From positions 62,001 through 126,000 of the forward strand of contig NZ_VWSF01000009.1 of assembly GCF_008629685.1 (NCBI RefSeq): a stretch of DNA of 64,000 bases, in the 5' to 3' direction. The notes under the pieces are model-generated. The model searched no databases and was not told where the DNA came from. It was given only the letters and a program-made list of their open reading frames with translations. Below are positions 1 through 37,695 of this stretch, piece after piece. Made by a program: the position numbers and the translations under genes. The stretch is from Adhaeribacter rhizoryzae (GTDB taxonomy: Bacteria > Bacteroidota > Bacteroidia > Cytophagales > Hymenobacteraceae). Within the stretch, counting starts at the first letter, position 1, and every line of letters begins with the position of its first letter.

Positions 1-888
1 TGGTTGGGTAATAGAATTGGCTATAATATTGTGCGGAAATAATACTGCTGCCTGAGCCCGCTTTTTATTTAACTCCGCTACGGGTATTTCGAAAGGGTTC
101 TGCTTTTTCGAGCCTTGTTCCCAAACGAGCCCCGCCGGGTGACCGTAAAATTTGCCTGCTTGCACTTCGTACAACGGACTGGTTCCCACCCAGTCGCCCT
201 GGTTATCAGTAACCAATAAATTATTTTCGCCATCCAGCACCAAACCATTAGGCGAGCGAAAGCCGCTGGCATAAGGCAATAATTTACCCGTCGGCGTTAA
301 TTGCATAACCCAACCCCGGTAGGGCACCACCGAAAACATTTGCCGCCCATACTTGCCCAAGGTAGTAGAATCCAGTTTGCCCCGTACTTCGGGCCGCACG
401 CCACCATTGGGCGAACCAGTATTTAAGGCGATAAATAAATTGCCTTGTTTATCTTTTACCGGCCCGTAATTAAACTCATGAAAATTACCCGAAATGCCGA
501 AATCATCGGTTAAGGTTTCGTACAAATCGGCTTGCCCATCGCCGTCGGTGTCTTTTACCCGGGTTAGTTCCGGGCGCTGCATTACTAATATTTCCGAATT
601 GCTAACGACTAATATTCCGAGCGGGTCGTGGAGACCGTGGGCAAATACCCGCCATTGTTTCTTTTGCGGGTTATAAATCATTATTTCGCCCCGACTAAAC
701 CCAGCCACCAACTCGCCGTTGGGCAAAAATTCTATAGCCCCGGTTTCACTTACCAGGTTGTCCGGCATTGGAATCGACTCTACGCGGTAAGCTGGGGCAG
801 CATTAACGCCAGGTGTAGGTTTAACCGGGTCGGCGGCCATAAACCAGAAAGAGAAAAAGATTGATAAAAGCAACCAGGCTGATTTCAT
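1..888 (-). CDS. Sorbosone dehydrogenase-like beta-propeller protein, partial (3' end outside window)
   Basis: The frame is open from an ATG at 888 to the left edge (296 codons, no stop), so the C-terminus is missing. The product begins with a signal peptide (MKSAWLLLSIFFSFWFMAAD) and continues as a propeller-type sugar dehydrogenase/NHL-like protein: a DTDGDGQAD loop, FRSPNGLVLDGENNLLVTDNQGDW and GHPAGLVWE are typical of the glucose/sorbosone dehydrogenase superfamily, which works in the periplasm. Many relatives carry a C-terminal cytochrome c domain, which cannot be checked here. Its ATG overlaps the TGA of the upstream cupredoxin gene (ATGA, 885-888), so the two are probably translationally coupled and may form an electron-transfer pair. 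The exact sugar substrate is unknown. Confidence 0.85.
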   Translation of the reverse strand, partial: MKSAWLLLSIFFSFWFMAADPVKPTPGVNAAPAYRVESIPMPDNLVSETGAIEFLPNGELVAGFSRGEIMIYNPQKKQWRVFAHGLHDPLGILVVSNSEILVMQRPELTRVKDTDGDGQADLYETLTDDFGISGNFHEFNYGPVKDKQGNLFIALNTGSPNGGVRPEVRGKLDSTTLGKYGRQMFSVVPYRGWVMQLTPTGKLLPYASGFRSPNGLVLDGENNLLVTDNQGDWVGTSPLYEVQAGKFYGHPAGLVWEQGSKKQNPFEIPVAELNKKRAQAAVLFPHNIIANSITQP

Positions 889-8903: not shown

Positions 8904-8963
8904 TATTTAGTGGCTTTAGAAATGGTTATTGGATTAGTAACTTCAGGTTATTTTGTTATTGGC

Positions 8964-10058: not shown

Positions 10059-10061
10059 ATC

Positions 10062-11078: not shown

Positions 11079-11102
11079 TTTAATATTTTAATCTGGAAAT
11101 CT

Positions 11103-14022: not shown

Positions 14023-17000
14023 TTAGAAACTTACATTAAGGCCCACCGTGAATACCCGGTTAATGGGCTCCGAACCATTAGCATTGTAACCCGGCATACT
14101 GTTTACCCCGCCAATTTCGCCGGCCGTATAGCCTTCCGGATTGTAGCCATGGAAATTTTTATCGGTTACCATTAGTAAGTTATTAATGGAAGTATACACC
14201 CGTAAACTGTTCATGCGGAACTTTTCGGCAATGCCAACCGGCAAGGTATAGCCCAGGTTTAAGTTCCGGACGCTCAGGAAAGAAGCATTTTCGATGTAAA
14301 TATCAGAAGCCCCCTGGAAGTTTAGCTGGCTAAGTGCGGCGGCTGGCATTTTGCCATCGCCGGGTTCTGCCGGCGACCACCACTGGGTTTCTACCAAAGA
14401 GCGGCGCATGGCACCCAGCACGTTGCCCTGGTAAGACTGGTTTTCGAAAGTGTACATTTTAGCCCCCAAAGAAGCTTGCATAGTAATATTTAAATCAAAA
14501 TTCTTCCAGGCAAAATCATTAGACATACCCAGGAATAATTTAGGCTGAAAGTTGCCCAAAATAACCCGATCTTGCGGATCAATTTTATTATCGCCGTTAA
14601 CGTCCTGGTATTTAGGGTTACCGGGTTTTGAACCAGCCAGTACCGGCGAATTCTTTACTTCTTCAGCATTTTGTAAAACACCAATGGTGCGGTAACCATA
14701 GTACGAGAACATCGGCTCCCCTACCCGCAATAACCAACTCATGCCGTAAGTATCGGTAACCGTTCTTTCCTGAAGGCCGCCCAAAGAAACTACTTCGTTG
14801 CGGTTCCGCGACACATTGAAGAAAGTCGACCATTTAAAATCGCCGGTCAGGTTTTTGGTGTTTAATTCTAATTCTACCCCTTTGTTCCGGATTTCGCCAA
14901 TATTAGAGAGCGTTCCGGTAAAGCCGGTAATAGCCGGAATGGCCACATTGTATAATTGATCGGTGGTGGTTTTATCGTAAAAATCCAGAACCATATTTAT
15001 CCGGTTCTGAAACAAGCCTAACTCAACGCCAAAATCATAGCTGTTGGTTTTTTCCCATTTGAGTTTATCGTTCCCGAACGAAGTCTGCGCCATGCCTTTC
15101 GCAAACACATTATTAGGCGAATAATTAACGCTCGTGATTCCACCTAAATAACTAAAATTACCAATGTTAAAATTACCGGTAGCACCGTAGCTTCCGCGCA
15201 GCTTCAGTTCACTAACAGCCGGAATATCTTGCATAAAACCTTCCTGCGATACGCGCCAGCCCACAGAAGCCGAAGGGAAATATCCCCATTTATTATCCGG
15301 CGCAAACCGCGAACTGCCATCGGCGCGTAAGGAACCCGACAGTAAATATTTTTCTTTAAAAGCATAATGCAGGCGGCTGAAATAAGAAACCAGACCCCAA
15401 CCTTCGCGGTAAGAAGAAGTACCAGCCGGGTTAATAATGGCATTATTTAGGGTATGAATAATATCGTTGTTAAAAGAACCAGGCACCGCGGCTAATGAGG
15501 TACTGCGGGAAGTACTTTGCTGGTAAGACGCTCCCAATAAACCACTAACCTCATGTATGTCTTTAAAAGTACGGTTATAGTTCAGGGTATTTTCGTTTAA
15601 CAGGTTGATGGTGCGGTAGTCGCTGGCCGAACCGCTGGTGGAGCCGCTGTTGGTAGCAAAACTGGCCTGGAAATAATCCGAAGAACCAGAAGAAATATTG
15701 GTACCCACCGAGGTTCTGAAGTTCAGGCCTTTTAATAGTTCAAGGCTCAGGTACGCTTCTCCTACATTATTTAAAGCGCTGGAAGTATTAAAAGTACCGT
15801 TCAGAATGCCGTTTGGGTTGGCTTGCGAGGTAACATTCTGGCCCCAGTAATCTCTGGCCTTCGGATAAGTACCATCGGGATTGCGGGGCGCTACAAACGG
15901 CGGATATTTTACCAGGCTTACCATTAAAGAACCGGCATCGCGTCGTTTGGCATACGATGGATTCAGCAAGAAACCCATGTTAATTATTTTATTGACTTTT
16001 ACATCTACGTTGGCCCGCACGCCATAAAATTTATAAGAAGCCGTTTTAACAATTCCTTCTTCGCCGTTGTGCGTGGCCGATACATAATATTTAACGGCAT
16101 CGGTACCGCCACTTACCGAAAAATTATAGCTTTGGATAGGCGCCCGCTGCAAAACTTCGTCCTGCCAAATGGTTTGGGGTTCTTCTTTAATAATGGGGTT
16201 TACCTGGTATTGCGCCGGACGACGCGGATCGCCCCAAACCGGGATAGACGGATCGCCGCCCGCCCAGGCAAATTCGCGGTTCTGATATTTTACTACGTAA
16301 TTGTAATATTCCTCTCCGGTTACCCAGTCGTCGTGCAACATGGGTTTGGAAACGCCATAGTAGGTATTAAAATTTAATTTAGGTTTACCGGTCTGGCCTT
16401 TTTTGGTGGTAACAATAATTACCCCGCCGGCCGCTCTGGAACCGTAAATAGCCGCCGAAGAAGCATCTTTTAACACCTCAATCGATTCTACATCGTTCAT
16501 GTTTATCTGCCCCAGGCTACCCCCCGGAAAACCATCAATCACCACCAGCGGATCGTTACCGGCATCAATAGAACCCGCTCCCCGAATCCGGATTAAAGGC
16601 GCTGCACCCGGTGTACTACGGGTTTGCGCAATATTAACCCCGGCCAAACGGCCTACGAGCGCTGTTTCGGGCCGGCCCGCTGGTACCTGATCCAATATTT
16701 TATTTTCAATTTTTGCAACTGCTGCGGTAACAGAACTTTTTTTCATGGTGCCATAACCCACTACCACTACTTCTTGCAGGGCTTTGGCATCATCAGACAA
16801 AGTTACATTTATCGCGCCTGCGCCGGAAAAAGAGACTTCTTTGGTAACCGAACCAATGTAAGAAAATATTAAAGTGCCGGCCGTTTCGGGTACGCGTAAA
16901 GCAAAATTGCCATTGGCATCGGTAGTGGCCCCCACCGAGCCGCCTTTTAATAACACCGTTACCCCAGGCAATGCCTCGCCCCGTTCCGATACTACCTTGC

Positions 17001-17142
17001 CCGTAATTTCCCAGTCAACTAACCTTACTGCTGCGCGGGCTGCGGCCACACTACTGCTGGTGCTGGCCGTGGCGCCCTGCCCTGGCCCGGCCAGGAGCAG
17101 CAAACAGGCCAGATAAGGCCAACCATTCGTAAATTTTTTCAT
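14023..17142 (-). CDS. susC: SusC/RagA-family TonB-dependent outer-membrane transporter
   Basis: 1039 residues. A signal peptide is followed by a carboxypeptidase-regulatory-like domain (ITGKVVSERGEALPGVTVLL, about 47-130), then the TonB plug with VVVVGYGTMKKSSVTAAV and YGSRAAGGVIIVTTKKG, then a 22-strand-type barrel ending in a terminal aromatic residue (VGLNVSF). With the SusD protein it imports an oligomeric nutrient using TonB energy. Two degenerate copies of the proposed LacI operator lie upstream (17241-17258 and 17530-17543), which would tie this pair to the hexosamine regulon to its right. The first gene of a possible 17-kb series. Confidence 0.96.
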   Translation of the reverse strand: MKKFTNGWPYLACLLLLAGPGQGATASTSSSVAAARAAVRLVDWEITGKVVSERGEALPGVTVLLKGGSVGATTDANGNFALRVPETAGTLIFSYIGSVTKEVSFSGAGAINVTLSDDAKALQEVVVVGYGTMKKSSVTAAVAKIENKILDQVPAGRPETALVGRLAGVNIAQTRSTPGAAPLIRIRGAGSIDAGNDPLVVIDGFPGGSLGQINMNDVESIEVLKDASSAAIYGSRAAGGVIIVTTKKGQTGKPKLNFNTYYGVSKPMLHDDWVTGEEYYNYVVKYQNREFAWAGGDPSIPVWGDPRRPAQYQVNPIIKEEPQTIWQDEVLQRAPIQSYNFSVSGGTDAVKYYVSATHNGEEGIVKTASYKFYGVRANVDVKVNKIINMGFLLNPSYAKRRDAGSLMVSLVKYPPFVAPRNPDGTYPKARDYWGQNVTSQANPNGILNGTFNTSSALNNVGEAYLSLELLKGLNFRTSVGTNISSGSSDYFQASFATNSGSTSGSASDYRTINLLNENTLNYNRTFKDIHEVSGLLGASYQQSTSRSTSLAAVPGSFNNDIIHTLNNAIINPAGTSSYREGWGLVSYFSRLHYAFKEKYLLSGSLRADGSSRFAPDNKWGYFPSASVGWRVSQEGFMQDIPAVSELKLRGSYGATGNFNIGNFSYLGGITSVNYSPNNVFAKGMAQTSFGNDKLKWEKTNSYDFGVELGLFQNRINMVLDFYDKTTTDQLYNVAIPAITGFTGTLSNIGEIRNKGVELELNTKNLTGDFKWSTFFNVSRNRNEVVSLGGLQERTVTDTYGMSWLLRVGEPMFSYYGYRTIGVLQNAEEVKNSPVLAGSKPGNPKYQDVNGDNKIDPQDRVILGNFQPKLFLGMSNDFAWKNFDLNITMQASLGAKMYTFENQSYQGNVLGAMRRSLVETQWWSPAEPGDGKMPAAALSQLNFQGASDIYIENASFLSVRNLNLGYTLPVGIAEKFRMNSLRVYTSINNLLMVTDKNFHGYNPEGYTAGEIGGVNSMPGYNANGSEPINRVFTVGLNVSF

Positions 17143-17240
17143 GCTACTTAATTATTAGGTTTTTGTTTGGTGTTAAAATCTATCTTATCTAAAAGGCTTC
17201 AAGCAAATAATACTTATGTAAATAGATAAATTTAAATTAA

Positions 17241-17258
17241 ATGTGTTCGTACACGCAT
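17241..17258. promoter_or_regulatory. LacI-type operator candidate (susC proximal)
   Basis: ATGTGTTCGTACACGCAT, an imperfect palindrome centred on CpG at 17248/17249, about 100 bp upstream of the susC start. It matches the copies before the GH20 and kinase operons (core GTGYTCGTACAC). Confidence 0.6.
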
Positions 17259-17315
17259 TATGTTAAATTTTCAGTTCTTAAATCTATACTTTCAAGAAAT
17301 TTTCGATTAAATTAC

Positions 17316-17461
17316 TTAAAGGGTGCAGGCGTAATTTATATAGCTGTATTTTATTGTTAATAGTAGATTTTAAGGTAGAAGCTAACTTAAAAAGAAGCGC
17401 TATTCTGCTTTATATTAATTTCAATCTACGCTGCCGTTCTCTTTTACGCGCTCCTGCACCC
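17316..17461. mobile_element. Candidate MITE-like element with 13-bp inverted ends and 9-bp flanking direct repeat
   Basis: TTAAAGGGTGCAGG (17316-17329) is inverted as CCTGCACCCTTAA (17453-17465). The outside is flanked by the direct repeat TTAAATTAC at 17307-17315 and 17462-17470, as expected for a target duplication (the last bases of the right arm overlap the duplication). About 146 bp, no coding capacity, placed between the two susC operator candidates. No related transposase is in the window. Confidence 0.45.
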
Positions 17462-17529
17462 TTAAATTACACGGAAAAAATTATAAAAAAAATACTTTAA
17501 GTAATTTTAGTAGGAGAAAATCAAAATTT

Positions 17530-17543
17530 AAGGTTCGTACACA
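17530..17543. promoter_or_regulatory. LacI-type operator candidate (susC distal, one good half)
   Basis: AAGGTTCGTACACA: the right half and central CG match the other sites exactly while the left three bases differ. Centre 288 bp from the proximal site. Weaker than the other copies. Confidence 0.4.
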
Positions 17544-17785
17544 CAAAAGAATAATTACATTGCTTTATGTTATTACCTTAAATTAATAGGAAGAGAACTT
17601 TAATTATTTAGACCAGACAAGATTGTTAGCTTAAATATTGAAGTTGCTTGTTATCCAAAGCGAACCAATCACCTATAAAGCACCAAAACTTAATCCCTTG
17701 GCTGGTTGTTTTCACTTATAATAGTTTAGCAGAAGTTTTAAGATTGACGGTAAAAACACCATAACTCGGGCTAAACGCAGCCTTG

Positions 17786-17840
17786 CATTGCCCGGGTACT
17801 TTAGCCCCGGGTTTTTAGCACCCCTGACTGAAGTCAGGGG
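17786..17840. repeat. GC-rich hairpins downstream of PQQ dehydrogenase gene
   Basis: CCCGGG is inverted across 17791-17811, followed by a near-perfect hairpin CCCCTGACTGAAGTCAGGGG (17821-17840; 9-bp arms). It resembles dispersed intergenic palindromes and may terminate the transcript ending at 18002. Confidence 0.5.
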
Positions 17841-18001
17841 CCATTCAAAGGCAGGCGATTGAAAAAGGTGTATGTAGTGTATATTTTCTCTTAGCTGACA
17901 ACTATGGCGCTGGCTTCCGCTCAAAATCAAAACACCAAACAGCTTCCATATTAGCCCACAAAATTAGTAGCGGTACCAATATTACCCCCGTCTACGCTGG
18001 T

Positions 18002-19597
18002 TTAATTCTTACCGGCTGTTCTTAAGTTCTTTACTTCCTCGGCAGCAACGGCACTGGCTTTGTTGCCAAACTGGTAGCGCACATACGTAAGCACCTCAGC
18101 AATATTTTTATCGCTTAGGAATGTAAATGCCGGCATTTGCTGGTTATATTCTACGCCTTTTACTTTTACCGGGCCCGATAAGCCGTGCAGCACAATTTTA
18201 ATTAAAGCATTTTTATCCAGTACCTGCTCCGCACCCTGCAAAGGCGGAAACGTTTCGGCTACGCCGTTACCATCTTTTTTATGACAGGAAACACAATATT
18301 GCTCGTACACAATTTTGCCGGGAGCAATTAAATCAGGTAAGGTTGACGGGGTAGCTGACGCGGTTGTTTGGGCTACAATTTGTACGGGTGCTTTGGTTAT
18401 AGGCTCTCCTTGCTTTATCCGGTAAAGCCGGATGATGCGATCGTCAGCGGGTTTAGGAAAGCCTTCGGCGGGGTTCCAGTCTTTGTTGCTTGTAGCTATA
18501 TAAATATCGCCGGCCGGCGAAACCACCACATCGCGCAAGCGGCCATAAGCTTTATCTAAATATATTTCTTCTTTTGTTATTGCTGTGCCGGCGCTGTTTA
18601 GTTTAAGCACCCGGAACGTTTGGGTTTTAAGCGTAGTGAGTAAAACCGCATTGCGCCACTCCGGTATGGCAGTGCCATTGTAAAACTCGATGCCGGCCGG
18701 CGCAATTACAGGCGTCCAGGCGATTAAAGGTTCTGTTACTTGGGTGGTGGTGCAAAAAGCTTTTTCTGCCGGCTGGTCGCAGTAGCCTTCTACCGTGGGC
18801 CAGCCGTAATTATTACTTTTCTGAATTAGGTTCAACTCGTCGTTGCTGGCATCGCCGTGCTCGGAACTGTAGAGGTTACCGTTGGGGCCCCAAACCAAAC
18901 CCTGTGCATTGCGGTGCCCCCACGACCACACCAGGCTGCCGGGTATCGGGTTATCGGCCGGCACCGAGCCATCCAGGTTCATTCTTAATATTTTGCCATT
19001 GATAGAGCTCTTATCCTGCGCGTTTTTTCCTACGTTCAGGTCGCCGGTAGTCATAATAATTTTGTTATCCGGCGAAATTACCAACCGCGATCCGTTGTGG
19101 CCGTTTGCCCCCGGAATATTATCTAGTAAAACAACCGGGCTAGTTAAGGTATCGCGCTGATAAGTATACCGCACCAACCGCGACTTCACCGCTTCGCCTT
19201 GCAGGTAAGTATAATCCAGAAACACATAAGGCGATTTTTTAAAATCGGGATGCAGCGCCATGCCCAATAAACCCATAGAGCGGCGGCGGTAAACATCCGG
19301 AATTTTCAGCATTATTTTTTTCTCGCCGGTAGCCGGGTTTAGTTTGCTCACGGCACCACCCTGCTCGGTAAACCAAATATTATTATCGGGTCCCCACACC
19401 ATTTCCCAGGGTACATCCAAACCCGATGCCACCGTACCCACCCCAATTTGGGTAGAATCCAGGGTAATTAATGTTTCTACGGGAGTGGTAAACAGTAGCG
19501 CTTTCCCTGGGCTATTACTACCCATCCCTAATTTATGCTGACAGCCCAACAGCGGCAGAAAACAAAACAGCAAAGCGCTTAAAGAAGAAATTTTCAT
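18002..19597 (-). CDS. PQQ-dependent sugar dehydrogenase with C-terminal cytochrome c domain
   Basis: The ATG at 19597 is preferred to a TTG 14 codons upstream because it gives a lipoprotein signal (MKISSLSALLFCFLPLLGC). The main part is a soluble-type glucose/sorbosone dehydrogenase propeller (GLDVPWEMVWGPDNNIWFTEQGG, GANGHNGSRLVISPDNKI, WSWGHRNAQGLVWGPNG with the catalytic-site histidine region). The last 100 residues form a cytochrome c: heme motif CVSCH, distal Met in NQQMPAF. It oxidises a sugar outside the cytoplasm and passes electrons to heme. It starts 67 bp after the GH20 stop and probably shares that operon and its operator, so a released hexosamine or sugar is the likely substrate (inference). 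Confidence 0.9.
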   Translation of the reverse strand: MKISSLSALLFCFLPLLGCQHKLGMGSNSPGKALLFTTPVETLITLDSTQIGVGTVASGLDVPWEMVWGPDNNIWFTEQGGAVSKLNPATGEKKIMLKIPDVYRRRSMGLLGMALHPDFKKSPYVFLDYTYLQGEAVKSRLVRYTYQRDTLTSPVVLLDNIPGANGHNGSRLVISPDNKIIMTTGDLNVGKNAQDKSSINGKILRMNLDGSVPADNPIPGSLVWSWGHRNAQGLVWGPNGNLYSSEHGDASNDELNLIQKSNNYGWPTVEGYCDQPAEKAFCTTTQVTEPLIAWTPVIAPAGIEFYNGTAIPEWRNAVLLTTLKTQTFRVLKLNSAGTAITKEEIYLDKAYGRLRDVVVSPAGDIYIATSNKDWNPAEGFPKPADDRIIRLYRIKQGEPITKAPVQIVAQTTASATPSTLPDLIAPGKIVYEQYCVSCHKKDGNGVAETFPPLQGAEQVLDKNALIKIVLHGLSGPVKVKGVEYNQQMPAFTFLSDKNIAEVLTYVRYQFGNKASAVAAEEVKNLRTAGKN

Positions 19598-19664
19598 GTA
19601 ATTCGTAATCAGAAAACCGGCCTCGCCTGAAGGCTGCAAGCGGCTAACGCATTAACCGCTAATA

Positions 19665-21758
19665 TTATAAGCTTACCTTTAACGGCGACCAGCTATTTAG
19701 TTTTTTGTTCATTTCCAGTTCAAAAACGTACATCCAGTCGCTGTTATTTGTGCCGTTGGCCAGGTGGTGGTGCCCGTTCTGATCGAGCTGGTATCCGGCC
19801 GGATTCTGCAGAAACCGGGTTTTCGAGAACACTTCTTCGTACTGTTTCCGGAGCACCGGAAAATTATTAACGTACTGTTGAACCTGCTGCGCAGCTTCCT
19901 TCTTTTGCCGGGCAACTTTGGTTTTGTCGTATTCGGCCAGGAGCAATAATAATTTAGCCGGATAAATCTGGAGTTCGTTCATCTGGTTAAAAAGTGCCAG
20001 GTTATAAGTATTGCGTATAGCGGCGGTTTGGGCTTTGGCAATGGTTTCCTTAATCTGGTTATAACGCTGTACCTCGGCCTGGGCTTTATTTATTTTTTCC
20101 TGGTATTGCTTACTCCAGTCACCATTTTTCCGGGCATCGGGCAACTCTATTAAATCAATATCTTGGGGGTAATTATTCCGGTAACCTTTGTCCAGGAGGG
20201 CTTTCTCCCAGAATACCAGCGCATCCTCCAAATTATTCTGAAACTCAAAGGAAGCACTGCTTAAAGCCGGACCGTAAAAACGATGGCGGTATAAGGCATT
20301 CACCGCATCGGCCGAAAGGTCTTCGTGGTTCCAGCTAAACAAAGCAAAATTGTAAAGTCCGCGCCAGACGGTTTCGTGGTGCGGCGAGCAATCGTCCCAA
20401 ACGGTGCATAAAATACCGTCCATCTTCTTTTCGGCGGCAATGCGACTAAAATCTTTTATAGATTCTAAATTCGAATTTTCGCGCGGTAACATCGGCCACA
20501 TGGTTTGGGCCGCTGTGGCCGCCATTACTTTTAAATTATTTTGTTTGTACCAGTCAATCGCCTTTTTATTGCCGTAAATATCGGGTGTTTTGTAGTTCCA
20601 GCGCATGTAAACGCATTCTTTCGGAAACAAAGGCAAATTTTGAGTTAGTTGCGATTGCTTGGCTTGCCAGATGCTATCAATCCGCTGTTTGGGCATACGT
20701 TCGTTGTGAGTAGTTTCGTAAACGCCCGATAATTTAAAAAGCATATCGTCCCAGAATATGGGAATGCGGTTGTGCTGGCGGGCATACTCGGTTACCTTGC
20801 CTAACCAGTACATTTGCAATTCCAGCGGGCTTTTGCCGGATTTTTTCGCCAGTTCCGATACGCCTAGTTTGCCTACTTCGTCGCCGCCAATGTGCAAATA
20901 TTTGCCGCTGGGGGTTGCGGCCAGCGCATCGTCGTAAAGCGAAAACTGCAACTCATAGGTTCTGGGATTGAGCGGGTCGAAAGCCCAGTCAGATTGAGCA
21001 TCGTCGCGTAAAGGCTTGTACTGGTCGTGCTTTAAAATAAAAGAAGCATGGCCTAAACCTTGTACCAAAGGGCTGATTTGGATATTTCGTTCCTGGGCGT
21101 AGCGGCTGATGGCGGCAAATTCTTCTATCGAAATAGCGTGGCTGGCCCCTACTACCGGCGCGCCCCGGTACCGCAGCTTATCTTCAAACTCTACTATAAT
21201 GGCGTTTACCTTTACCTGGGCCAGGCGGTCGATCATGTCGTAATAATAATGGCCGGCATCCAGGTGGTGTTTTAAATCCAGGTGCACCGAGCGGTAAGCC
21301 ACTTCCGGAAAATCGGTAATTTTAACGGCCGGAATAGCAATATTCTGGTCACGGGCATCTTCCAGGAGCTGGTTCAGGGTTTGGCAGCCGTAAAACAAGC
21401 CGGCCTGGTCGCGGGCCGAAATATTAATGCCGTTAGGCGTTACCTGCAACAAATAGCTTTCGGGCGCTGCGGGTACCTGGTTATCCTGGGTAATGGTTAG
21501 GGTAATTATTTCTTTGCCGGCGTTAGCGGCCAGGGGTATATTTTTGAGTAAGCCGTACAAAACCGGTTTGGTAGCCGCACCTTGCAGGTAAATACCCTTT
21601 ACGGTGGTATAAGGCAAGTTGCCTCCGGGTAGCATTTCTATCTTTTGGGGTTGCGGCAATAATTTAAACTGCGCCGGAAAATCTGCCGGCACCGGATCGG
21701 CCGCCAGGTTTTTGAATAAGACTAAAACAAGTAAGAGTTGGCCGAAGATAAATTTCAT
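19665..21758 (-). CDS. Glycoside hydrolase family 20 beta-N-acetylhexosaminidase
   Basis: 697 residues with a signal peptide, an N-terminal GH20b domain (about 30-150; FKLLPQPQKIEMLPGG) and the GH20 barrel from 155 (RSVHLDLKHHLD). The catalytic pair is D293-E294 in HIGGDEV: the Glu is the acid/base and the Asp orients the substrate acetamido group for substrate-assisted catalysis. A helical C-terminal tail follows. It removes terminal beta-GlcNAc or GalNAc from glycans in the periplasm or at the surface. The tryptophan-rich substrate pocket is not fully typical, so the exact linkage is open. It heads a two-gene operon with the PQQ dehydrogenase, behind a strong promoter and operator. Confidence 0.92.
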   Translation of the reverse strand: MKFIFGQLLLVLVLFKNLAADPVPADFPAQFKLLPQPQKIEMLPGGNLPYTTVKGIYLQGAATKPVLYGLLKNIPLAANAGKEIITLTITQDNQVPAAPESYLLQVTPNGINISARDQAGLFYGCQTLNQLLEDARDQNIAIPAVKITDFPEVAYRSVHLDLKHHLDAGHYYYDMIDRLAQVKVNAIIVEFEDKLRYRGAPVVGASHAISIEEFAAISRYAQERNIQISPLVQGLGHASFILKHDQYKPLRDDAQSDWAFDPLNPRTYELQFSLYDDALAATPSGKYLHIGGDEVGKLGVSELAKKSGKSPLELQMYWLGKVTEYARQHNRIPIFWDDMLFKLSGVYETTHNERMPKQRIDSIWQAKQSQLTQNLPLFPKECVYMRWNYKTPDIYGNKKAIDWYKQNNLKVMAATAAQTMWPMLPRENSNLESIKDFSRIAAEKKMDGILCTVWDDCSPHHETVWRGLYNFALFSWNHEDLSADAVNALYRHRFYGPALSSASFEFQNNLEDALVFWEKALLDKGYRNNYPQDIDLIELPDARKNGDWSKQYQEKINKAQAEVQRYNQIKETIAKAQTAAIRNTYNLALFNQMNELQIYPAKLLLLLAEYDKTKVARQKKEAAQQVQQYVNNFPVLRKQYEEVFSKTRFLQNPAGYQLDQNGHHHLANGTNNSDWMYVFELEMNKKLNSWSPLKVSL

Positions 21759-21881
21759 TTGTTTAAAGTTAAGCTACAGAAAAAATTATTGCTTGCGCGG
21801 AATACACTGCTTTACTAAAAATCCGGAATGCTTTACAGGTAATATTTGCCAGATTTTTACAGTTTTTATTTTTGTATTAAC

Positions 21882-21912
21882 CAAACATAAACATTTCCGA
21901 GTACAACTCAAA
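21882..21912 (-). promoter_or_regulatory. Bacteroidota-type promoter of the GH20 operon
   Basis: On the minus strand, TTTG (21912-21909) and TATGTTTG (21889-21882) match the -33 and TAnnTTTG -7 elements with a 19-bp spacer, the consensus for primary sigma factors of this phylum. Predicted start of RNA near 21878, giving a leader of about 120 nt. Confidence 0.7.
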
Positions 21913-21927
21913 CAGGTAAGCGTAAAA

Positions 21928-21945
21928 AATGTGCTCGTACACATT
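21928..21945. promoter_or_regulatory. LacI-type operator (GH20 operon / lacI-family gene)
   Basis: AATGTGCTCGTACACATT, a palindrome with central CG typical of LacI-family sites. It is centred about 58 bp upstream of the predicted GH20 start, above rather than over the -33 box, and 238 bp upstream of the regulator gene on the other strand, so one site could serve both. Confidence 0.7.
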
Positions 21946-22182
21946 AATATTTTTCGGATAGCTTTATAACTACTTTCTTTACTGTCTTAAATAATTATTT
22001 ATAGCCTGTGTAAACAGCCAATTTTTATTTTAACTGTTATAGGTGATAGAATTATTAAGCGTATGCTTAATCTTAGAGCAGACCATTGAAAAAGAAGATT
22101 AAGTAAATAAAAATTATATATTGCACTAACGGCGTATATACCGGCATAAAGCATCTATCGGAAGAGGTAAATTTAGTAAGTA

Positions 22183-23250
22183 GTGAAAAATAAGATTGTC
22201 AGAATAAAAGATATTGCCGAGAAAGCAGAAGTATCGAAGGGAACAGTAGATCGGGTTTTGCATAACCGCGGTCGGGTATCGGAAGAAGCCCGCGAAAGGG
22301 TGTTGAAAATTATTCAGGAAATGAATTACGAACCTAACCTGATTGCCCGCACCCTTAAAAGTAATAAAGTTTACCACATTGCCGCCATTATTCCAGACCC
22401 TTTAATAGACCCGTACTGGGAAGCGCCTAAATCGGGCTTAGAAAAAGCCGAGAAAGAATTGCGCCACTACGGCATTTCGGTTACACCCTTTATTTTTAAC
22501 CCATACAACGTAGATTCTTTTCTGAAAAAAGCCAAAGAAGCAACGCAATCGGAGCCAGATGGCATATTATTAGCGCCGGTTTTTTACCGCGAAGTTTTGT
22601 CTTTTTTCGACCAGTGGAATGTTAAAAGAATACCTTTCGTATTATTTAACACCCAAATTCCGGATGCCGCGCCGCTGAGTTATATTGGCCAGGACTCGTA
22701 CCAGAGTGGTTATTTGGTAGCTAAACTGCTCACCTTTGGCTTGCCCGAGCCTTGTACTTTTTTAGTGGCCCACATCAACGAAGATATTCCCAACTCGGCG
22801 CACCTGATAAAAAAAGAAGAAGGCTTCCGCAATTATTTCGTAGATAAAAAGCTGGAAGATAAATATAAGGTAGTGCGGCTGGAGTTAGGCAACCCCGATA
22901 GTGGCTTGTTTACGGAACAGCTTAATAAAGTAAGGCAACAACACCCCGACCTGAAAGCCATTTTTGTAACTAATTCTAAAGCCTACGAAATTGCTTTTTA
23001 CCTCGAAAAACACCGCATAGATAATATTAAGCTTATCGGCTACGACTTGCTGCCCAAAAACTTGTACTACCTCGAAAACAGCATTATTAATTTCCTAATC
23101 AACCAGAATCCCAAAGGCCAGGGTTACTGGGGCATTCAGCAGCTAACCGATTTCTTAGTATTCAAGAAAGAAATTCAGCCTATTAAATATTTACCCTTAG
23201 ATATTATTACCCAAGAAAACTTAAGTTATTACGTTGATAATGAAGCTTAA
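22183..23250 (+). CDS. LacI-family transcriptional regulator
   Basis: 355 residues. The N-terminal LacI helix-turn-helix is complete (residues 6-52: IKDIAEKAEVSKGTVDRVLH), followed by the hinge helix region (NLIARTLKS) and a periplasmic-binding-protein-like sensor domain. The start must be the GTG at 22183: the next in-frame ATG would remove the DNA-binding helices. It is the only regulator in the window and is divergent from the GH20 operon. The recurrent CG-centred palindrome at four promoter sites is the natural binding-site candidate. The inducer is probably a sugar, perhaps GlcNAc, GalNAc or a phosphorylated form (inference). Confidence 0.93.
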   Translation: MKNKIVRIKDIAEKAEVSKGTVDRVLHNRGRVSEEARERVLKIIQEMNYEPNLIARTLKSNKVYHIAAIIPDPLIDPYWEAPKSGLEKAEKELRHYGISVTPFIFNPYNVDSFLKKAKEATQSEPDGILLAPVFYREVLSFFDQWNVKRIPFVLFNTQIPDAAPLSYIGQDSYQSGYLVAKLLTFGLPEPCTFLVAHINEDIPNSAHLIKKEEGFRNYFVDKKLEDKYKVVRLELGNPDSGLFTEQLNKVRQQHPDLKAIFVTNSKAYEIAFYLEKHRIDNIKLIGYDLLPKNLYYLENSIINFLINQNPKGQGYWGIQQLTDFLVFKKEIQPIKYLPLDIITQENLSYYVDNEA

Positions 23251-23271
23251 TGAATGGCTGTGTGCATAAAC

Positions 23272-23300
23272 ACCGGAAGCTCTTAAAAAGAGCTTCCGGT
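23272..23300. terminator. Hairpin after the LacI-family gene
   Basis: A perfect 13-bp stem, ACCGGAAGCTCTT / AAGAGCTTCCGGT, with a 3-base loop, 21 bp after the stop. No T-run on the plus strand, so it may work with other factors or as an mRNA-stabilising end. Confidence 0.6.
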
Positions 23301-23474
23301 GAGCTTTCATAGCTTCTATGACTAAAGGCAATTGGGCATTCCAAATTCAGGAAAGCTGGTTATTCAGGATAAACGCGGTGTTTTATTGGTAGTGAATAAT
23401 ATTGCAGTTTATTAGCAGATATTAGCCTTGAAATATATAAAAGCAATGTTCTCTTCTAAATATTTAAGGCGATG

Positions 23475-23568
23475 ATCCCACCTCTGTCATTCTGGGAATA
23501 CAAGTATTCCAGGAGGAACCTATTGGGCTACCGGCTAAATAGGTTCCTCCTGAATGACAGAGATGGAT
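23475..23568. repeat. Nested palindromic repeat, copy 1
   Basis: Outer arms CTCTGTCATT / AATGACAGAG and GGAGGAACCTATT / AATAGGTTCCTCC enclose a separate inner palindrome CTGGGAATACAAGTATTCCA. A second, clearly homologous copy is at 56203-56294. Probably a small dispersed element of this genome. Confidence 0.65.
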
Positions 23569-23633
23569 TACTTAAACGCTATTTTTGTTGCACCTCAACC
23601 TTTCTATACTTTCAGGCAACAACAGTACTAATA

Positions 23634-25055
23634 CTAAATTTTAACATTGGTGGTACCACCACCGCGGAAGGTAATATCTACGGGGGTATTTTTTTGCCAG
23701 GCGCCGCCGGTAAAATCAGGTACATCAATAGAATTAGAGCGGTTGGCTACCGACCATTCGCTTAATGGCGCAATGGCACTCCAGAGCGCGGCATCATACA
23801 CATCCTGATCCAAAGGCAAGCCGTTGCGCAATAAATCAATCAGGCGCCAATCCATTAAAAAGTCCATGCCGCCGTGGCCGCCTACTTGCTTGGCCATTTC
23901 GCCTAAACGCCGGATTAATTCGGGCTGATATTTTTCTTCTACGGCTTTAAACTCGGTTTCGGATAACCATTTTTCGTGCGAGGTGGCTATTTTGGCTGGG
24001 GTAGGCCACTTACGGGCCGCGCCTTGGGTACCGGTAATGGCATGAATACGGGAATACGGCATGTTAGAAGATACATCGTGCTGCACCATAATGGTACGGC
24101 CTTTTTTGGTGCGAATGGTAGTGGTATTCATGTTGCCACGGTATTTTTTATTCGCAAACTCGTTGTAAAAACTATCCTGGCTTGCCAGTTTTTTAGCGGT
24201 TTCGCCCATGGTAAAATCATTACTCGACATAGACACCAAATAATCCATCTGGTCGCCGCGGTTAATATTCATGACCTGGCAAATAGGACCTAAACCGTGC
24301 GTAGGATATAAATTGCCGTCCCGGAAATTTTCTTTTAGCCGCCACATGCCCTGGTAGCCTTTTTTACTAAAGTTTAAATCTACCAGGTTGTGCAGGTAAG
24401 CGCCTTCGCCGTGCACAATTTCCCCGAAAAAGCCTTGGCGGGCCATGTTCAGGGTAAGCATTTCGAAAAAATCGTAGCAGCAGTTTTCCAGCATCATGCA
24501 GTGTTTGCGCGTGCGTTCCGAAGTTTCTACTAATTGCCAGCATTCTTCCAAAGTAGTGGCCGCCGGCACTTCTACAGCTACGTGCTTGCCGTGCTCCATG
24601 GCGTAAACCGCCATAGGCGTGTGTAAATGCCAGGGCGTAGCAATATAAATTAAGTCAATATCGTCCCGGTCTACCATTTCTTTCCAGGCCTCTTCTTTGC
24701 CCGAGTAAGTTGTTGGTTTATGCGTAGAGTTAGCCAATATTTTCTGCGCCGAAGCTACATTTTCGGGCCGCAGGTCGCACAAACCTTTAATATCTACGCC
24801 TTCTATCCGGTTAATGCGGTTTACGGCGCCCGGTCCCCGCTGCCCCAAACCAATAAAACCAATGCGTACGGTTTCGAGTTTAGGAGCGGCATAACCACTC
24901 ATGTTAAATACCTGGCGGTGGCTTTTAGCGGCTTGTTTGGGCACGTTGCCCGCACTGGCGCCCGCCGTAGCACAAGCGTTTAACATGCTGGTTCCGGCCA
25001 GCCCTACGCCGGCCAATCCGGCCAGCTTTAAAAATTCTCTGCGGTTATTACTCAT
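23634..25055 (-). CDS. GH109-type (NAD-dependent alpha-N-acetylgalactosaminidase-like) Gfo/Idh/MocA protein
   Basis: 473 residues. The leader has both a twin-arginine motif (NNRREFLKLAG) and a possible lipobox (MLNAC, Cys28). The Rossmann motif is GFIGLGQRGPG (66-76). The EKP signature is replaced by EVPAA (161-165), and DGNLYPTHGLGP (245-256) followed by RGDQMDYLVSMSS is the pattern I associate with GH109 enzymes, which cleave alpha-GalNAc by a NAD-assisted oxidation-elimination cycle. That fits the GH20 and NahK-type neighbours. Last gene of the kinase operon, 103 bp after the CBM9-like gene. Activity on another aminosugar is possible. Confidence 0.85.
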   Translation of the reverse strand: MSNNRREFLKLAGLAGVGLAGTSMLNACATAGASAGNVPKQAAKSHRQVFNMSGYAAPKLETVRIGFIGLGQRGPGAVNRINRIEGVDIKGLCDLRPENVASAQKILANSTHKPTTYSGKEEAWKEMVDRDDIDLIYIATPWHLHTPMAVYAMEHGKHVAVEVPAATTLEECWQLVETSERTRKHCMMLENCCYDFFEMLTLNMARQGFFGEIVHGEGAYLHNLVDLNFSKKGYQGMWRLKENFRDGNLYPTHGLGPICQVMNINRGDQMDYLVSMSSNDFTMGETAKKLASQDSFYNEFANKKYRGNMNTTTIRTKKGRTIMVQHDVSSNMPYSRIHAITGTQGAARKWPTPAKIATSHEKWLSETEFKAVEEKYQPELIRRLGEMAKQVGGHGGMDFLMDWRLIDLLRNGLPLDQDVYDAALWSAIAPLSEWSVANRSNSIDVPDFTGGAWQKNTPVDITFRGGGTTNVKI

Positions 25056-25158
25056 GATTTTAAATAGCTGTGGTTATAGTAGTCGTTTTGGTTTTCAGGC
25101 GGAATATTTCAAGCTAGATTATTTTTATTATAGTTTGCGGCAGCGCTTTGCCTTAAAT

Positions 25159-25818
25159 TTAAGCAAATTGTACTTCCCCGAAGAATTCCGGCAAATGAAA
25201 ATTTGGTTCTTCGGCCAGAATATTATTCCAGGCTAAAAAATGAGGTTGCGGCAAATCATCGCCGCATTTATAAAAATTTACTTTGCCCTGCACGCCCTGG
25301 AAAGAAGTTAAATCATGTACACAAAATACTTCCACGGGTAATACCAGGGTTAACTGCCAGTTGGTTAATAAATGGCCGCTGGCCGCTGTTTTTTGCATTA
25401 CGGCCCACCGGTTTATTTTACCAATTACATGCTCGGGCAACAACGTACGGTTTTCTTTGCCGTTGCCAAACCCACCCAAACAGGTTCCCATACAGTTAAA
25501 CTCAAAGTTATAATAGGCGTCTTCGTCGTTAAAAGCGATAAAAAACTCGACGCAGCTATCTTTAAATACCGGGTCGTTGGTTTGGCGGTACCGGGCCCGG
25601 ACGGCGTTTTCGCTGACATAAAATTTAATAAACAGGCAGTTAAGGCTATGCGCCAACGAAAATTTAACCGAAGGCACGTAATCGTATGCCGGCCAGGGCG
25701 CTTTATCGATGCTTAATTTCGCTTGTTCATCCAGCGCAGCCGAAATATCTTCGATGGGCATATCCCGGTCTAGTTGCGACAAATACGGCACATGCAGTTG
25801 TTTCAGGTTGGTTGGCAT
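25159..25818 (-). CDS. CBM9-like carbohydrate-binding protein without signal peptide
   Basis: 219 residues resembling the carbohydrate-binding family 9-like (DOMON-type beta sandwich) domain: CLFIKFYVSENAVRARY, DSCVEFFIAF, YNFEFNCMG and the C-terminal HFLAWNN...NFHLPEFFGEVQF. There is no signal peptide, so it would be cytoplasmic unless exported by another route. It lies 2 bp downstream of the kinase gene, hence translated with it. It may bind the imported sugar or sugar nucleotide, or be a remnant of an enzyme. Function unknown. Confidence 0.8.
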   Translation of the reverse strand: MPTNLKQLHVPYLSQLDRDMPIEDISAALDEQAKLSIDKAPWPAYDYVPSVKFSLAHSLNCLFIKFYVSENAVRARYRQTNDPVFKDSCVEFFIAFNDEDAYYNFEFNCMGTCLGGFGNGKENRTLLPEHVIGKINRWAVMQKTAASGHLLTNWQLTLVLPVEVFCVHDLTSFQGVQGKVNFYKCGDDLPQPHFLAWNNILAEEPNFHLPEFFGEVQFA

Positions 25819-25820
25819 AC

Positions 25821-26966
25821 TTATTCCCCCGCTACGGCCACCTGGTTTTGCACCGGCGCAACTTCCAGAATAATGGCCATCATCTCTTTAAAGTGAACTT
25901 CTAAATTTTTAACAAGTTGCAATTGGGCCCGGGCCCGCTGCAGGTTGTGTTCCGGAAAATGAATTTTATAATAATTATCGCCGTCGATGTAATCGGTTAA
26001 GAAGCGCAGGCCCATAATATAGGGCAATAACAACACGCCGTAAGCCAGCGAGGTAAGCTCGGTGCGGGAAAGGAACGTACCGGTTTCGGCTAGAAAGCCT
26101 TCGGTAAAGCCCCGGAATAACGCTAAATCAACGTTTATTTTAGTTAAATCTTTTTCGTCTTCGGCGGCGGTATTTACTGTAGTCCGGATGGCATCGCCAA
26201 AATCATAAGCTACGTAACCGGGCATTACCGTATCCAGGTCAATAACACACTGGGCTTTACCAGCAGCATCGAGCAGCACATTATTAAACTTGGTATCGTT
26301 GTGGGTAATCCGGAGCGGAATCTGGCCGCTTTCGCCCAGGTTTAGCACGGTAAGCATGATAGCAATGCGCTCTTCAATCGCCTGAATTTCCGGCTGTACT
26401 TCTTTTACCCGCCCTACCGAATCTTTCGCTAAGGCTTCCCGGAATAGCCGCAGGCGGCTTTCTATATTATGGAAATTTGGAATGGTTTCGTGTAGTTGGT
26501 TTACCGGCAAATCGGCTAATAACCTTTGAAATTTACCGAAAGCTTTACCGCCTTCGTAAGCCTGCTGCGAATTTTCTACAATATCGTAGGTGCGGGTATT
26601 ATCCAGAAAATAATACACCCGCCAGTAATTGCCGTCGGCATCGGTGTAATACCATTGGCCCGATTGGGTTGGAATTAAAGTAAGTACTTCTTTTTCCGGG
26701 TTAGCATTGGGCAAGTTGTTCAGTTTTTCCCGCAGGTGCTTTGTTACCACCTGAATATTTTCCATCAGGCCCGGCACATTCTTAAATACATGATGATTAA
26801 CGCGCTGCAACAAATAATCGGGTGCGCCGGCCTGGGCATTAGTTACCCGGAACGTATCATGAATGTGGCCCGACCCGTGCGGTTCGATGGCTGCTGCCTC
26901 GCCCTGAATATTAAACTGCGCTACAATGGCCGCTAAGTTGTAGCCGGTCTTACTGCTCTCTTTCAT
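25821..26966 (-). CDS. NahK-type N-acetylhexosamine 1-kinase / phosphotransferase-family protein
   Basis: 381 residues with the aminoglycoside-phosphotransferase kinase fold: phosphate loop region HGSGHIHDTF (30-39), catalytic loop THNDTKFNN (221-229, catalytic D224) and metal-binding IDLDT (242-246) followed by YDFGDAIR. This pattern matches NahK of the bifidobacterial lacto-N-biose pathway and its relatives, often mislabelled as mucin-desulfatase. NahK makes GlcNAc-1-P or GalNAc-1-P from ATP. The adjacent nucleotidyltransferase (1 bp apart) would make the UDP-sugar. Family firm; substrate inferred from neighbours GH20, GH109 and the permease. Confidence 0.87.
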   Translation of the reverse strand: MKESSKTGYNLAAIVAQFNIQGEAAAIEPHGSGHIHDTFRVTNAQAGAPDYLLQRVNHHVFKNVPGLMENIQVVTKHLREKLNNLPNANPEKEVLTLIPTQSGQWYYTDADGNYWRVYYFLDNTRTYDIVENSQQAYEGGKAFGKFQRLLADLPVNQLHETIPNFHNIESRLRLFREALAKDSVGRVKEVQPEIQAIEERIAIMLTVLNLGESGQIPLRITHNDTKFNNVLLDAAGKAQCVIDLDTVMPGYVAYDFGDAIRTTVNTAAEDEKDLTKINVDLALFRGFTEGFLAETGTFLSRTELTSLAYGVLLLPYIMGLRFLTDYIDGDNYYKIHFPEHNLQRARAQLQLVKNLEVHFKEMMAIILEVAPVQNQVAVAGE

Positions 26967-26967
26967 T

Positions 26968-27894
26968 TTATTTCCGCACTGCTAAAGGTTCATTCCATAA
27001 ATTTTCGGGGTAAACGTTTTGCGCTATTAACTGCCGCAAAGTTTGCTCCGCCACTGGTTTATCGGCCGGATACGTTACCCCAAACCACTTTTCGGGGGTA
27101 GGCAATATTTTTACCGAAGTAATATTCTTTTGCACCAGATTATCTACCACCACCGGCAAATAAAATTCGGCTTTGGGCTGATGCGCTTGCTTTTCTAAAA
27201 ACTCCCGGAAATATTCTTCAAAATATCGAAATATAGTAGCCGGAAAACCGGTCAGGTTCATCGATACCACTTCGTTGCCGGTAAGCTTTATTTCCTGGTT
27301 ATTGGGTGTTTTGGCAATAATGCCGCTGGGCGTTTGTTCTATATGCGTTTGTTCGGTAATACTTACCAGGTTGCCCGCCGCATCTACCTCGCAAATACCC
27401 CGCGATACCGCCCCGTGCTCCGACAAGGTATTGAGTAACTTAAAACCCACCATGGCCGGCTGACCCGTAGTATCTTCTTTTAAATAATCGGCCATTATTT
27501 TAAAAGAATAATAGCCGTAAAAATCATCGCCGTTAATAACCGCAAAAGGGCTGGTTACTTTAGCCGCCGCTACCCAAACGGCGTGCCCGGTACCCCAGGG
27601 TTTTACCCGGTTTTCGGGTACGGTAAAGCCTTCGGGTAAAATATCGAGTTCCTGCAACACATAATCTACGGCTATTTTACCGGCAAACCGGGGCAGCAGC
27701 GTTTCTTTAAAACTGGCTAACAACGACTCCCGGATTACAAACACGACCTGCCCAAAACCGGCCTTAATTGCATCGTAAATAGAATAATCTATAATGGTTT
27801 CGCCGCTGGGGCCAAATTGTTCCAGTTGTTTTAAGCTGCCGTAGCGGGTTGCCATGCCCGCTGCCATCACCACCAATGTTGGTTTTATAGCCAT
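26968..27894 (-). CDS. Sugar-1-phosphate nucleotidyltransferase-family protein
   Basis: 308 residues of the NTP-transferase (GT-A-like) fold: VVMAAGMATRYGSLKQ (8-23, nucleotide-binding G-x-G/R loop variant), VINGDDFYG (metal-binding Asp) and GTGHAVW. It is shorter than GlmU and has no left-handed helix acyltransferase domain. It probably couples a sugar 1-phosphate from the kinase gene 1 bp downstream to UTP or another NTP. First gene of a four-gene operon (27894 down to 23634) whose predicted promoter is about 520 bp upstream. Confidence 0.87.
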   Translation of the reverse strand: MAIKPTLVVMAAGMATRYGSLKQLEQFGPSGETIIDYSIYDAIKAGFGQVVFVIRESLLASFKETLLPRFAGKIAVDYVLQELDILPEGFTVPENRVKPWGTGHAVWVAAAKVTSPFAVINGDDFYGYYSFKIMADYLKEDTTGQPAMVGFKLLNTLSEHGAVSRGICEVDAAGNLVSITEQTHIEQTPSGIIAKTPNNQEIKLTGNEVVSMNLTGFPATIFRYFEEYFREFLEKQAHQPKAEFYLPVVVDNLVQKNITSVKILPTPEKWFGVTYPADKPVAEQTLRQLIAQNVYPENLWNEPLAVRK

Positions 27895-27963
27895 TTTTTA
27901 CTTTATATTTTGCGCCGCCGATAAAAAATTCTGTATCAGCTTTTATTAACTTTTTATTTATAT

Positions 27964-28042
27964 CAGGATTTTCGCAAATCTTTTTTAATCTTTAAACCTT
28001 CCCCGCTAAAGGAAAATTTTTGACTCTTTTGCGGAAGTCCTA
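27964..28042. repeat. Inverted-end element related to the one at 7751
   Basis: CAGGATTTTCGCAAA (27964-27978) faces TTTTGCGGAAGTCCTA (28027-28042); the 13-base arms differ at two positions. About 80 bp, non-coding. Confidence 0.4.
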
Positions 28043-28247
28043 TTTAAATATTATTAAAACCAGATCTTCTGGGAGCATAAAACCTCATTAGCCTAATCGC
28101 CAGAAGATTGTTTCTGTTGAAGGAATCATCTCTTGGGCCGGAAAATCTTCGGCATTTGGGATTTAATACCCATGGTTAAGCTGCGCGTAAAAACCACTTA
28201 ATTTAAAGCTTTACCTATACAGACTCATTATTTTGCTGCACCCATCT

Positions 28248-28298
28248 CATTGCAGCGGTAACTTACCGGTTTACTTAGGATAAGATACCGCTGTAATG
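28248..28298. repeat. 17-bp stem-loop in the leader
   Basis: CATTGCAGCGGTAACTT (28248-28264) pairs with AAGATACCGCTGTAATG (28282-28298) with two mismatches and a 17-base loop. Confidence 0.5.
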
Positions 28299-28421
28299 CG
28301 GCGAATACATTAAAATAATTGTGGTGGATAGATTTTACTTTTGTATGCTAAATTTTAGTTTGCATTCGCTTTTCAAACCCAATTAAACCAGACTGGTTTT
28401 TCTAATTTAACTTTTGGTTAT

Positions 28422-28452
28422 TAAACATAAGCATTAGTTTTTAAAGATCAAA
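28422..28452 (-). promoter_or_regulatory. Promoter of the nucleotidyltransferase-kinase-CBM9-GH109 operon
   Basis: Minus-strand TTTG (28452-28449), 19-bp spacer, TATGTTTA (28429-28422; one base off TAnnTTTG). Aligned to the GH20 promoter the boxes and operator fall in the same places within 1 bp, which supports both predictions. Confidence 0.6.
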
Positions 28453-28468
28453 CTAATCTTAAAAAAAA

Positions 28469-28514
28469 TGTGCTCGTACACACATGTATAATATCCTAAA
28501 TGTGCACGTACATC
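28469..28514. promoter_or_regulatory. Tandem LacI-type operators
   Basis: TGTGCTCGTACACA (28469-28482) and TGTGCACGTACATC (28501-28514). Centres are 32 bp apart, three helical turns, so two dimers would bind the same DNA face. They lie about 57 and 89 bp upstream of the predicted start. Confidence 0.68.
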
Positions 28515-28620
28515 ATAAAAACAGGTACAATAACAATTAGCGTGTTTGCATTACTGGTTGCGCCTAACGGCACTATCCGCCACAATTCTTTATGATTGTG
28601 GCTTAATAATTTTGGGGTGA

Positions 28621-37689: not shown

Positions 37690-37695
37690 ATGAAC
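37636..37695 (+). repeat. Duplicated 60-bp promoter/leader segment, copy 2
   Basis: Starts TTCTGGCATATTATTAGACT; same length as copy 1 with 8 differences, continuing into the second small ORF. Confidence 0.7.

Follow-up and report, generated by a model that had tools for sequence, protein, structure and literature searches.

For sugar utilization in Bacteroidota, gene control is generally attributed to hybrid two-component systems, SusR-like proteins and extracytoplasmic function (ECF) sigma factors. Action of LacI-family proteins from sites upstream of a promoter is known from Cra/FruR of E. coli, which acts positively, and from GalR at gal, which contacts the polymerase; unlike the system described here, both have other operators, other ligands and sigma-70 promoters of the -35/-10 type. 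In main-text passages of a reconstruction of LacI-family regulons (Ravcheev et al., 2014; PMC4052901), where Cra is also mentioned, a central CG is reported for the consensus of 1173 of the 1303 regulators studied, intersite distances peak at 13, 22 and 32 bp, with 22 and 32 bp taken as cooperative binding, and positive control of the PckR targets is predicted from the site position. The polysaccharide utilization locus (PUL) BT4240-50 of Bacteroides thetaiotaomicron contains an APH-type kinase acting on position 1 of N-acetylgalactosamine (GalNAc), an MFS transporter and a GH109 gene; the kinase BT4240 prefers GalNAc, and normal growth on gastric mucin depends on it (main-text passages of PMC11992087). 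In Bifidobacterium a single regulator, NagR, co-controls a NahK-type kinase gene (LnpB) and genes for amino-sugar uptake and catabolism (passages of PMC9599254). Here we report on a 64,000-nucleotide stretch of the Adhaeribacter rhizoryzae genome (hereafter the window; positions 62001-126000 of contig C53 in a 6.52-Mb draft of 53 contigs), which carries a gene for a LacI-family regulator and a CG-centred palindrome in front of several genes for N-acetylhexosamine use.

Sequence comparison indicates that this operator and its regulon are real and conserved. Reasoning from the computed sites, their conservation, their co-variation with the regulator, a fixed promoter geometry and the target gene families to binding, activation and ligand, we give a probability of about 0.7 to the following explanation as a whole: the regulator, probably as a dimer, would bind ATGTGYWCGWRCACAT before a scattered N-acetylhexosamine regulon and activate it from upstream in response to an amino sugar. 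The regulon would comprise the GH20-PQQ dehydrogenase genes, a nucleotidyltransferase-NahK-CBM9-GH109 operon (the kinase operon), a GH123 gene on contig C45, a polysaccharide-lyase gene on contig C6 and probably susCD. As in BT4240-50, an APH-type kinase, an MFS transporter and GH109 occur in one locus, but that PUL is predicted to be under an ECF sigma/anti-sigma pair, and the main-text passages of PMC11992087 contain neither of the words LacI and nucleotidyl. The co-control of kinase, uptake and catabolism resembles NagR, which however is a ROK-family repressor with another operator and another mode of action (PMC9599254). With the regulons of Ravcheev et al. (2014) the system shares even, CG-centred palindromes, and its pairs at 31 or 32 bp compare with the 32-bp peak there; the Bacteroides regulators named in those main-text passages are UxaR, UxuR and KdgR, and they contain no such N-acetylhexosamine regulon and no fixed -33/-7 promoter distance. 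We found no published account of this regulon in the open-access literature searched.

All four palindromes of the window have the common 16-bp form ATGTGYWCGWRCACAT, an even palindrome with a central CG as is characteristic of LacI-family operators. The core 12-mers are GTGTTCGTACAC before susC (17243-17254), GTGCTCGTACAC between the GH20 and lacI genes (21931-21942) and again before the kinase operon (28470-28481), and GTGCACGTACAT in the distal kinase site (28502-28513). A symmetric 18-bp weight matrix, built only from these four sites (17240, 21928, 28467 and 28499), gives them scores of 18.7-24.3, whereas the best non-site of the window reaches 13.0 at 18296, and no score in 20 Markov-1 simulated windows reached 16. 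When each site was scored with a matrix from the other three it exceeded every non-site of the window (17.2, 21.9, 20.2 and 13.6, in the order given, versus best non-sites of 13.9, 12.9, 13.5 and 12.4), with a small margin for 28499. An earlier note on this DNA had listed five palindromes. The four named here lie far above chance, and the kinase site centres are 32 bp apart as the note stated, but the fifth site, at 17530, was dropped, as it scores 9.2 and 7.6 matches of at least 9 are expected by chance per 64 kb. The match at 18296-18313, ATATTGCTCGTACACAAT, was rejected because it lies within the PQQ-dehydrogenase coding region. The exact 12-mer GTGYWCGWRCAC occurs six times in the 6.52 Mb, three times inside the window; the copy on contig C10 was rejected as an operator because it is within a coding frame. 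Outside the window, operators precede the lyase gene on C6 (a pair, 31 bp) and the GH123 gene on C45. An Infernal model made from the four window sites returned six matches in the genome at E up to 10, namely these four and the C6 pair, and missed the C45 site. A CRP-type site, which has the spacing TGTGA-N6-TCACA, does not fit: TGTG and CACA are here separated by six bases and not by eight.

The regulator combines an N-terminal LacI helix-turn-helix with a periplasmic-binding-protein-like sensor domain, both above cut-off, and its nearest solved structure is 3gbv, a putative LacI-family regulator (E 5e-51, residues 57-351 matched). Its translation gives VSKGTVDRVLHNRG as recognition helix and ARTLKSN as hinge; the leucine that intercalates in this family is present in the hinge and in all 68 aligned rows, judged by sequence. 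The claim that only one such regulator is present holds for the window; the genome encodes seven proteins with a LacI helix-turn-helix. The remaining six have recognition helices that differ from that of the regulator, and their genes are on contigs without any exact 12-mer site.

Conservation of the operator was followed with the window-trained matrix in own, sister and relatives' genomes, as the earlier note had proposed, and sites were found to accompany the regulator orthologues, with controls nearly empty. The sister genome G001, with a 92% regulator orthologue, has a site at the same place between GH20 and lacI, accompanied by a lower-scoring one (14.5) at 31 bp, which has no counterpart in the window, and an operator pair before the kinase operon, about 36 kb from lacI; the 18-mer of the proximal kinase operator of the window is identical in this promoter. 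At the end of contig C49 of the same genome a site of the same form stands in sequence that aligns at 90% to the region upstream of the A. rhizoryzae GH123 gene, and the start of contig C3 extends this alignment at 95% into GH123. Operator pairs also precede the kinase operon in G006 (82% regulator identity) and both the kinase operon and susC in G007 (76%); the kinase pairs of G001, G006, G007 and G137 are spaced 31, 32, 31 and 31 bp. At a cut-off of E 1e-30 none of the seven other genomes of the genus contained a match to the C6 lyase, which leaves its operator pair without a comparison.

Beyond the genus, relatives of the regulator (E up to 1e-60) occur in 72 of 204 genomes of the family. 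Intergenic matches of at least 14 were present in 31 of 40 sampled relatives' loci from other genera, altogether 56 matches in 114,901 intergenic bp versus eight in 676,248 coding bp. In 20 control stretches, each from a different one of these genomes, the 62,915 intergenic bp were free of matches and the coding sequence had a single one. Outside the family 12 of 20 relatives' loci had a site (21 intergenic and three coding matches) versus none of 17 controls. No site was found at the most distant relatives sampled (39-41%; L050, L191). A family-wide Infernal search was too weak to be used alone, with a match at E up to 1 in 79 of the 204 genomes, many of them without the regulator; its strongest matches (E up to 0.06, a threshold set post hoc; 12 rows from six genomes) fell only in regulator-bearing genomes.

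The base pair beside the central CpG, left unweighted in the scan for this purpose, was compared with the hinge of the regulator in 68 rows, of which 55 could be scored, the rest being tied or without a site. A non-glycine hinge (LK or LV) goes with A/T in 28 of 29 loci with a majority and a glycine hinge (LG) with C/G in 24 of 26. The correspondence also holds between paralogues within G007, G166, G181 and G255, which argues against genome composition as its cause; the G193 paralogues were tied, and wherever else two relatives from one genome were sampled, at least one of them lacked a scored site. Because the site occurs with the loci of the relatives and its base beside the CpG goes with the hinge residue, it is very likely that the LacI-family protein of the window binds the motif.

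The geometry of the promoters was first noticed by reading downstream of the operators, where TTTG follows the operator centre by about 24 bp and TAnnTTTG by 48 bp; the GH20 promoters in both the window and G001 are examples. Among 130 non-overlapping intergenic sites scoring at least 13 in 73 loci (61 of them with a site), TAnnTTTR starts at +46, +47 or +48 from the operator centre at 47 sites, spread over 37 loci, versus 1.7 expected from background positions +60 to +119; a previous tally that allowed overlapping registers and used a lower cut-off had 9, 18 and 27 at +46, +47 and +48, respectively, over 211 directions. This -7 box, like the SusC/SusD genes and the type IX secretion tails of the window, is of the Bacteroidetes type. 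Since the flavobacterial sigma-A -7 box, TAnnTTTG, spans -12 to -5 (passages of PMC9723704), an operator whose centre precedes the start of this box by 46-48 bp and the -33 box by about 24 bp would be near -59.5. Twenty-eight of 35 neighbouring pairs within 80 bp are spaced 31 or 32 bp and four 21 bp, which are whole helical turns, and the second operator, often three turns further upstream, would thus be centred near -90.5. The composite pattern TGTGYNCGNRCACA-N38..40-TANNTTT has exactly three matches in the 6.52-Mb genome, and these are the GH20, kinase and GH123 promoters. It was found in 14 of the 72 regulator-bearing genomes of the family and in none of the other 132 (hypergeometric 2e-7, which ignores relatedness), and its reversed control in none of the 204; in an order sample that overlaps the family it was found in seven of 69 regulator-bearing and two of 321 other genomes. 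A generic sigma-70 promoter scan gave 23 promoters versus 22.6 expected. Towards lacI no such geometry was seen in the window or in G001; the site that the earlier note had placed between GH20 and lacI lies in their divergent region but has promoter geometry towards GH20 only, and autoregulation of lacI is therefore unsupported in these two genomes.

Several observations weigh against the proposed explanation. The +48 distance was first spotted in loci that were later included in the count, and 83 of the 130 sites have no TAnnTTTR at +46 to +48, although the distal site of a pair would not be expected to have this element; 12 of the 73 loci have no site of at least 13 at all. The susC operator of the window likewise has no TAnnTTTR at this distance; its nearest -7-like sequence, TATTATTTG, starts at +37, nearer by roughly one turn. 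In the C6 lyase promoter, read by eye, the -7 box at the expected place is only a weaker one (TAAGTTAA). The kinase operator centre lies 581 bp before the annotated first start in the window and 332 bp in G001, implying either a leader of about 520 bases or an insertion (27895-28460 of the window). The strict composite is absent from 58 of the 72 regulator-bearing genomes of the family and from 62 of the 69 in the order sample, so that, missing most of them, the pattern favours specificity over sensitivity; it also occurs, without a match to the regulator, in two order genomes (G380, G437), and the reversed control matched one of the 390 order genomes. The tree shows two changes of hinge class, which leaves one independent pair and cannot reach significance, so that relatedness explains much of the hinge contrast. 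Finally, repression from -60 is known for GalR.

The palindromes could in principle be chance occurrences or an intergenic repeat element, and the bare 12-mer is indeed not rare, given its six exact matches and the one in a coding frame. Its clustering in the window, the intergenic placement, the nearly empty control stretches and the composite with the promoter geometry make the probability of this negligible. The sites might instead serve another regulator, for example a different LacI protein, the linkage to the lacI gene of the window being incidental. Genomes with the genus code g5 do have a second LacI gene next to the kinase operon, surrounded by sites, and the two order genomes mentioned above carry the composite without the regulator. 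Against this, the other six LacI genes of the A. rhizoryzae genome are on contigs without an exact site and have different helices, the window matrix had no match at 21 genus loci that encode LacI proteins of other types, the operator base follows the hinge class of the window-type protein even between paralogues of one genome, and every family genome with the composite also has the regulator. We consider control by another protein very improbable and have high confidence that the regulator of the window binds the motif and co-controls the predicted target genes.

How it would act is less clear-cut. Most LacI-family proteins are repressors, and GalR at -60.5 offers a precedent for the same regulator and regulon being controlled by upstream repression, through polymerase contact or by displacing an upstream activator, with the sugar releasing it; contact-type repression would also require fixed phasing. 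On the other side, the geometry by which the 47 operators were counted itself puts them upstream of the promoter instead of over it, their spacing persists from genus to genus, and a repressor that simply blocks the polymerase could do without a fixed phased distance and would usually be found on the promoter or downstream of it. Class-I activators such as CRP occupy positions of the -60 and -91 type on one helix face. The operators described here, at about -60 and, when paired, about -91 with both facing the same way, match this placement in their fixed, helically phased upstream distance, except at susC of the window. Ravcheev et al. (2014; passages of PMC4052901) read 22- and 32-bp spacing as cooperative and the PckR site position as positive control, which is a further reason to prefer activation. 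Upstream repression therefore seems rather unlikely, and we lean towards activation: bound outside the promoter in fixed phase, the regulator would most likely act through contact with the polymerase, aided cooperatively by the second dimer. Its mode of action would then probably be opposite to the name of its family. More widely, it is an even bet that an order-wide LacI subfamily (helix GTVDRVLH) consists of amino-sugar-bound class-I activators at -59.5 (and -90.5), which switch on SusCD, hexosaminidase and kinase genes through the -33/-7 promoter, and whose hinge and first helix residue read the base beside the CpG so that paralogues of one genome keep separate regulons.

The kinase operon has the order nucleotidyltransferase-like gene, NahK homologue, CBM9_2 and GH109, and genes for a NahK-type kinase, a nucleotidyltransferase-like protein and a hexosaminidase share one operator type. 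The targets GH20, GH109, GH123 and the NahK-type kinase point to use of N-acetylhexosamines, probably GalNAc. As they look built to release and take up such sugars, the signal is likely of the GalNAc or N-acetylglucosamine (GlcNAc) type, that is GalNAc, GlcNAc or a 1-phosphate, with the ligand-bound form expected to be active; GalNAc is the first candidate because BT4240, whose locus also has MFS and GH109 genes, prefers it (passages of PMC11992087). For the FucP-like transporter gene upstream of the kinase operon, the window matrix found no preceding site of at least 9. The earlier note had proposed that a single regulator controls the susC, GH20 and kinase-operon promoters. Comparison supports this for most targets, through the relatives' loci, the composite and the motif kept at the GH20-lacI and kinase promoters of G001 and the kinase promoters of G006 and G007. 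It leaves susC as the least certain candidate member, since its operator lacks the fixed geometry, and indicates that the list is incomplete, as the sites before GH123 and the lyase lie outside the window. In other genera, genes near operators include NagB/PIG-L fusions, GH18 and a ROK kinase.

Features of the window. Operator positions cover the 18-bp matrix; offsets are counted from the operator centre.
Feature	Position	Strand	Remarks
SusD-like lipoprotein	12526..14004	-	PF07980, PF14322
SusC-like TonB-dependent transporter, behind the 17240 operator	14023..17142	-	TIGR04056 E 5e-265
Operator before susC	17240..17257	no strand	AATGTGTTCGTACACGCA, score 20.7; promoter geometry not seen
PQQ-type (GSDH) dehydrogenase carrying a cytochrome c domain, downstream of GH20	18002..19639	-	PF07995 E 3e-84, PF00034
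GH20 hexosaminidase	19665..21758	-	PF02838, PF00728
-7 element, GH20 promoter	21882..21889	-	TATGTTTG, +48..55
-33 element, GH20 promoter	21909..21912	-	TTTG, +25..28
Operator of GH20-PQQ dehydrogenase genes	21928..21945	no strand	AATGTGCTCGTACACATT, score 24.3
LacI-family regulator, 355 aa	22183..23250	+	LacI HTH PF00356 E 7e-18; Peripla_BP_4 PF13407 E 8e-39
GH109-type gene	23634..25055	-	PF21252 E 5e-39, PF01408
CBM9_2 protein of kinase operon	25159..25818	-	PF16011 E 7e-68
N-acetylhexosamine 1-kinase (NahK) homologue	25821..26966	-	PF01636; 4wh1/4ocj NahK E about 1e-86
Sugar-phosphate nucleotidyltransferase-like protein, first kinase-operon gene	26968..27894	-	weak PF12804/PF00483; 3pnn ('Conserved domain protein') E 3e-89
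-7 element, kinase promoter	28422..28429	-	TATGTTTA, +47..54
-33 element, kinase promoter	28449..28452	-	TTTG, +24..27
Proximal operator of kinase operon	28467..28484	no strand	AATGTGCTCGTACACACA, score 22.2
Distal operator of kinase operon	28499..28516	no strand	AATGTGCACGTACATCAT, score 18.7
FucP-like MFS sugar transporter, upstream of kinase operon	29162..30430	-	TIGR00885 328.8 bits, cut-off 280.4

A LacI-type protein thus seems to run a multi-locus amino-sugar regulon whose operator can be read from the DNA together with its promoter. The operator with TAnnTTT at a fixed distance is a usable predictor, with each of its three matches in 6.5 Mb standing before a fitting gene, and it offers a clear and cheap way to ask whether a 'repressor' family acts as activator in these bacteria. 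Paralogues with shifted operators provide a natural experiment on the way in which a LacI protein selects the base next to the central CpG.

Some further observations concern the genes around these sites. Across the kinase operon of the g5 genomes lies the second LacI gene (23-27% identity), so that two LacI genes flank the operon (L119-L121, L123-L126); its helix is STVSRAL in the three that were read (L119, L123, L124). In G001 two transposase-like frames, recognized by eye, stand beside the kinase operators (L103 16559-17668) and are possibly tied to the distance of the kinase operon from lacI. The C45 GH123 gene appears as two frames of 275 and 308 aa (L052 8308-9135 and 9190-10116, minus strand), by either an assembly error or a recent loss, whereas G001 has a single frame of 602 aa. 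A fusion of glucosamine-6-phosphate isomerase and PIG-L deacetylase of 637-638 aa recurrently adjoins operators in other genera (L209, L137, L181, L184). Behind SusCD, at 2170-12380 of the window, a same-strand cluster codes for MR_MLE, Gfo/Idh, DHDPS-like, epimerase and Nramp proteins. Its homologues are directly beside a 41% LacI in G503 (L191), where no site of at least 12 was found, and the cluster may once have had its own LacI. A possible operator, GGGTACGTACAC, precedes an Nramp gene in G001 (L042 8033, score 15.1). At 32796-49491 of the window four consecutive large proteins with Ig-like or PKD domains carry Por_Secre_tail, the type IX secretion signal.

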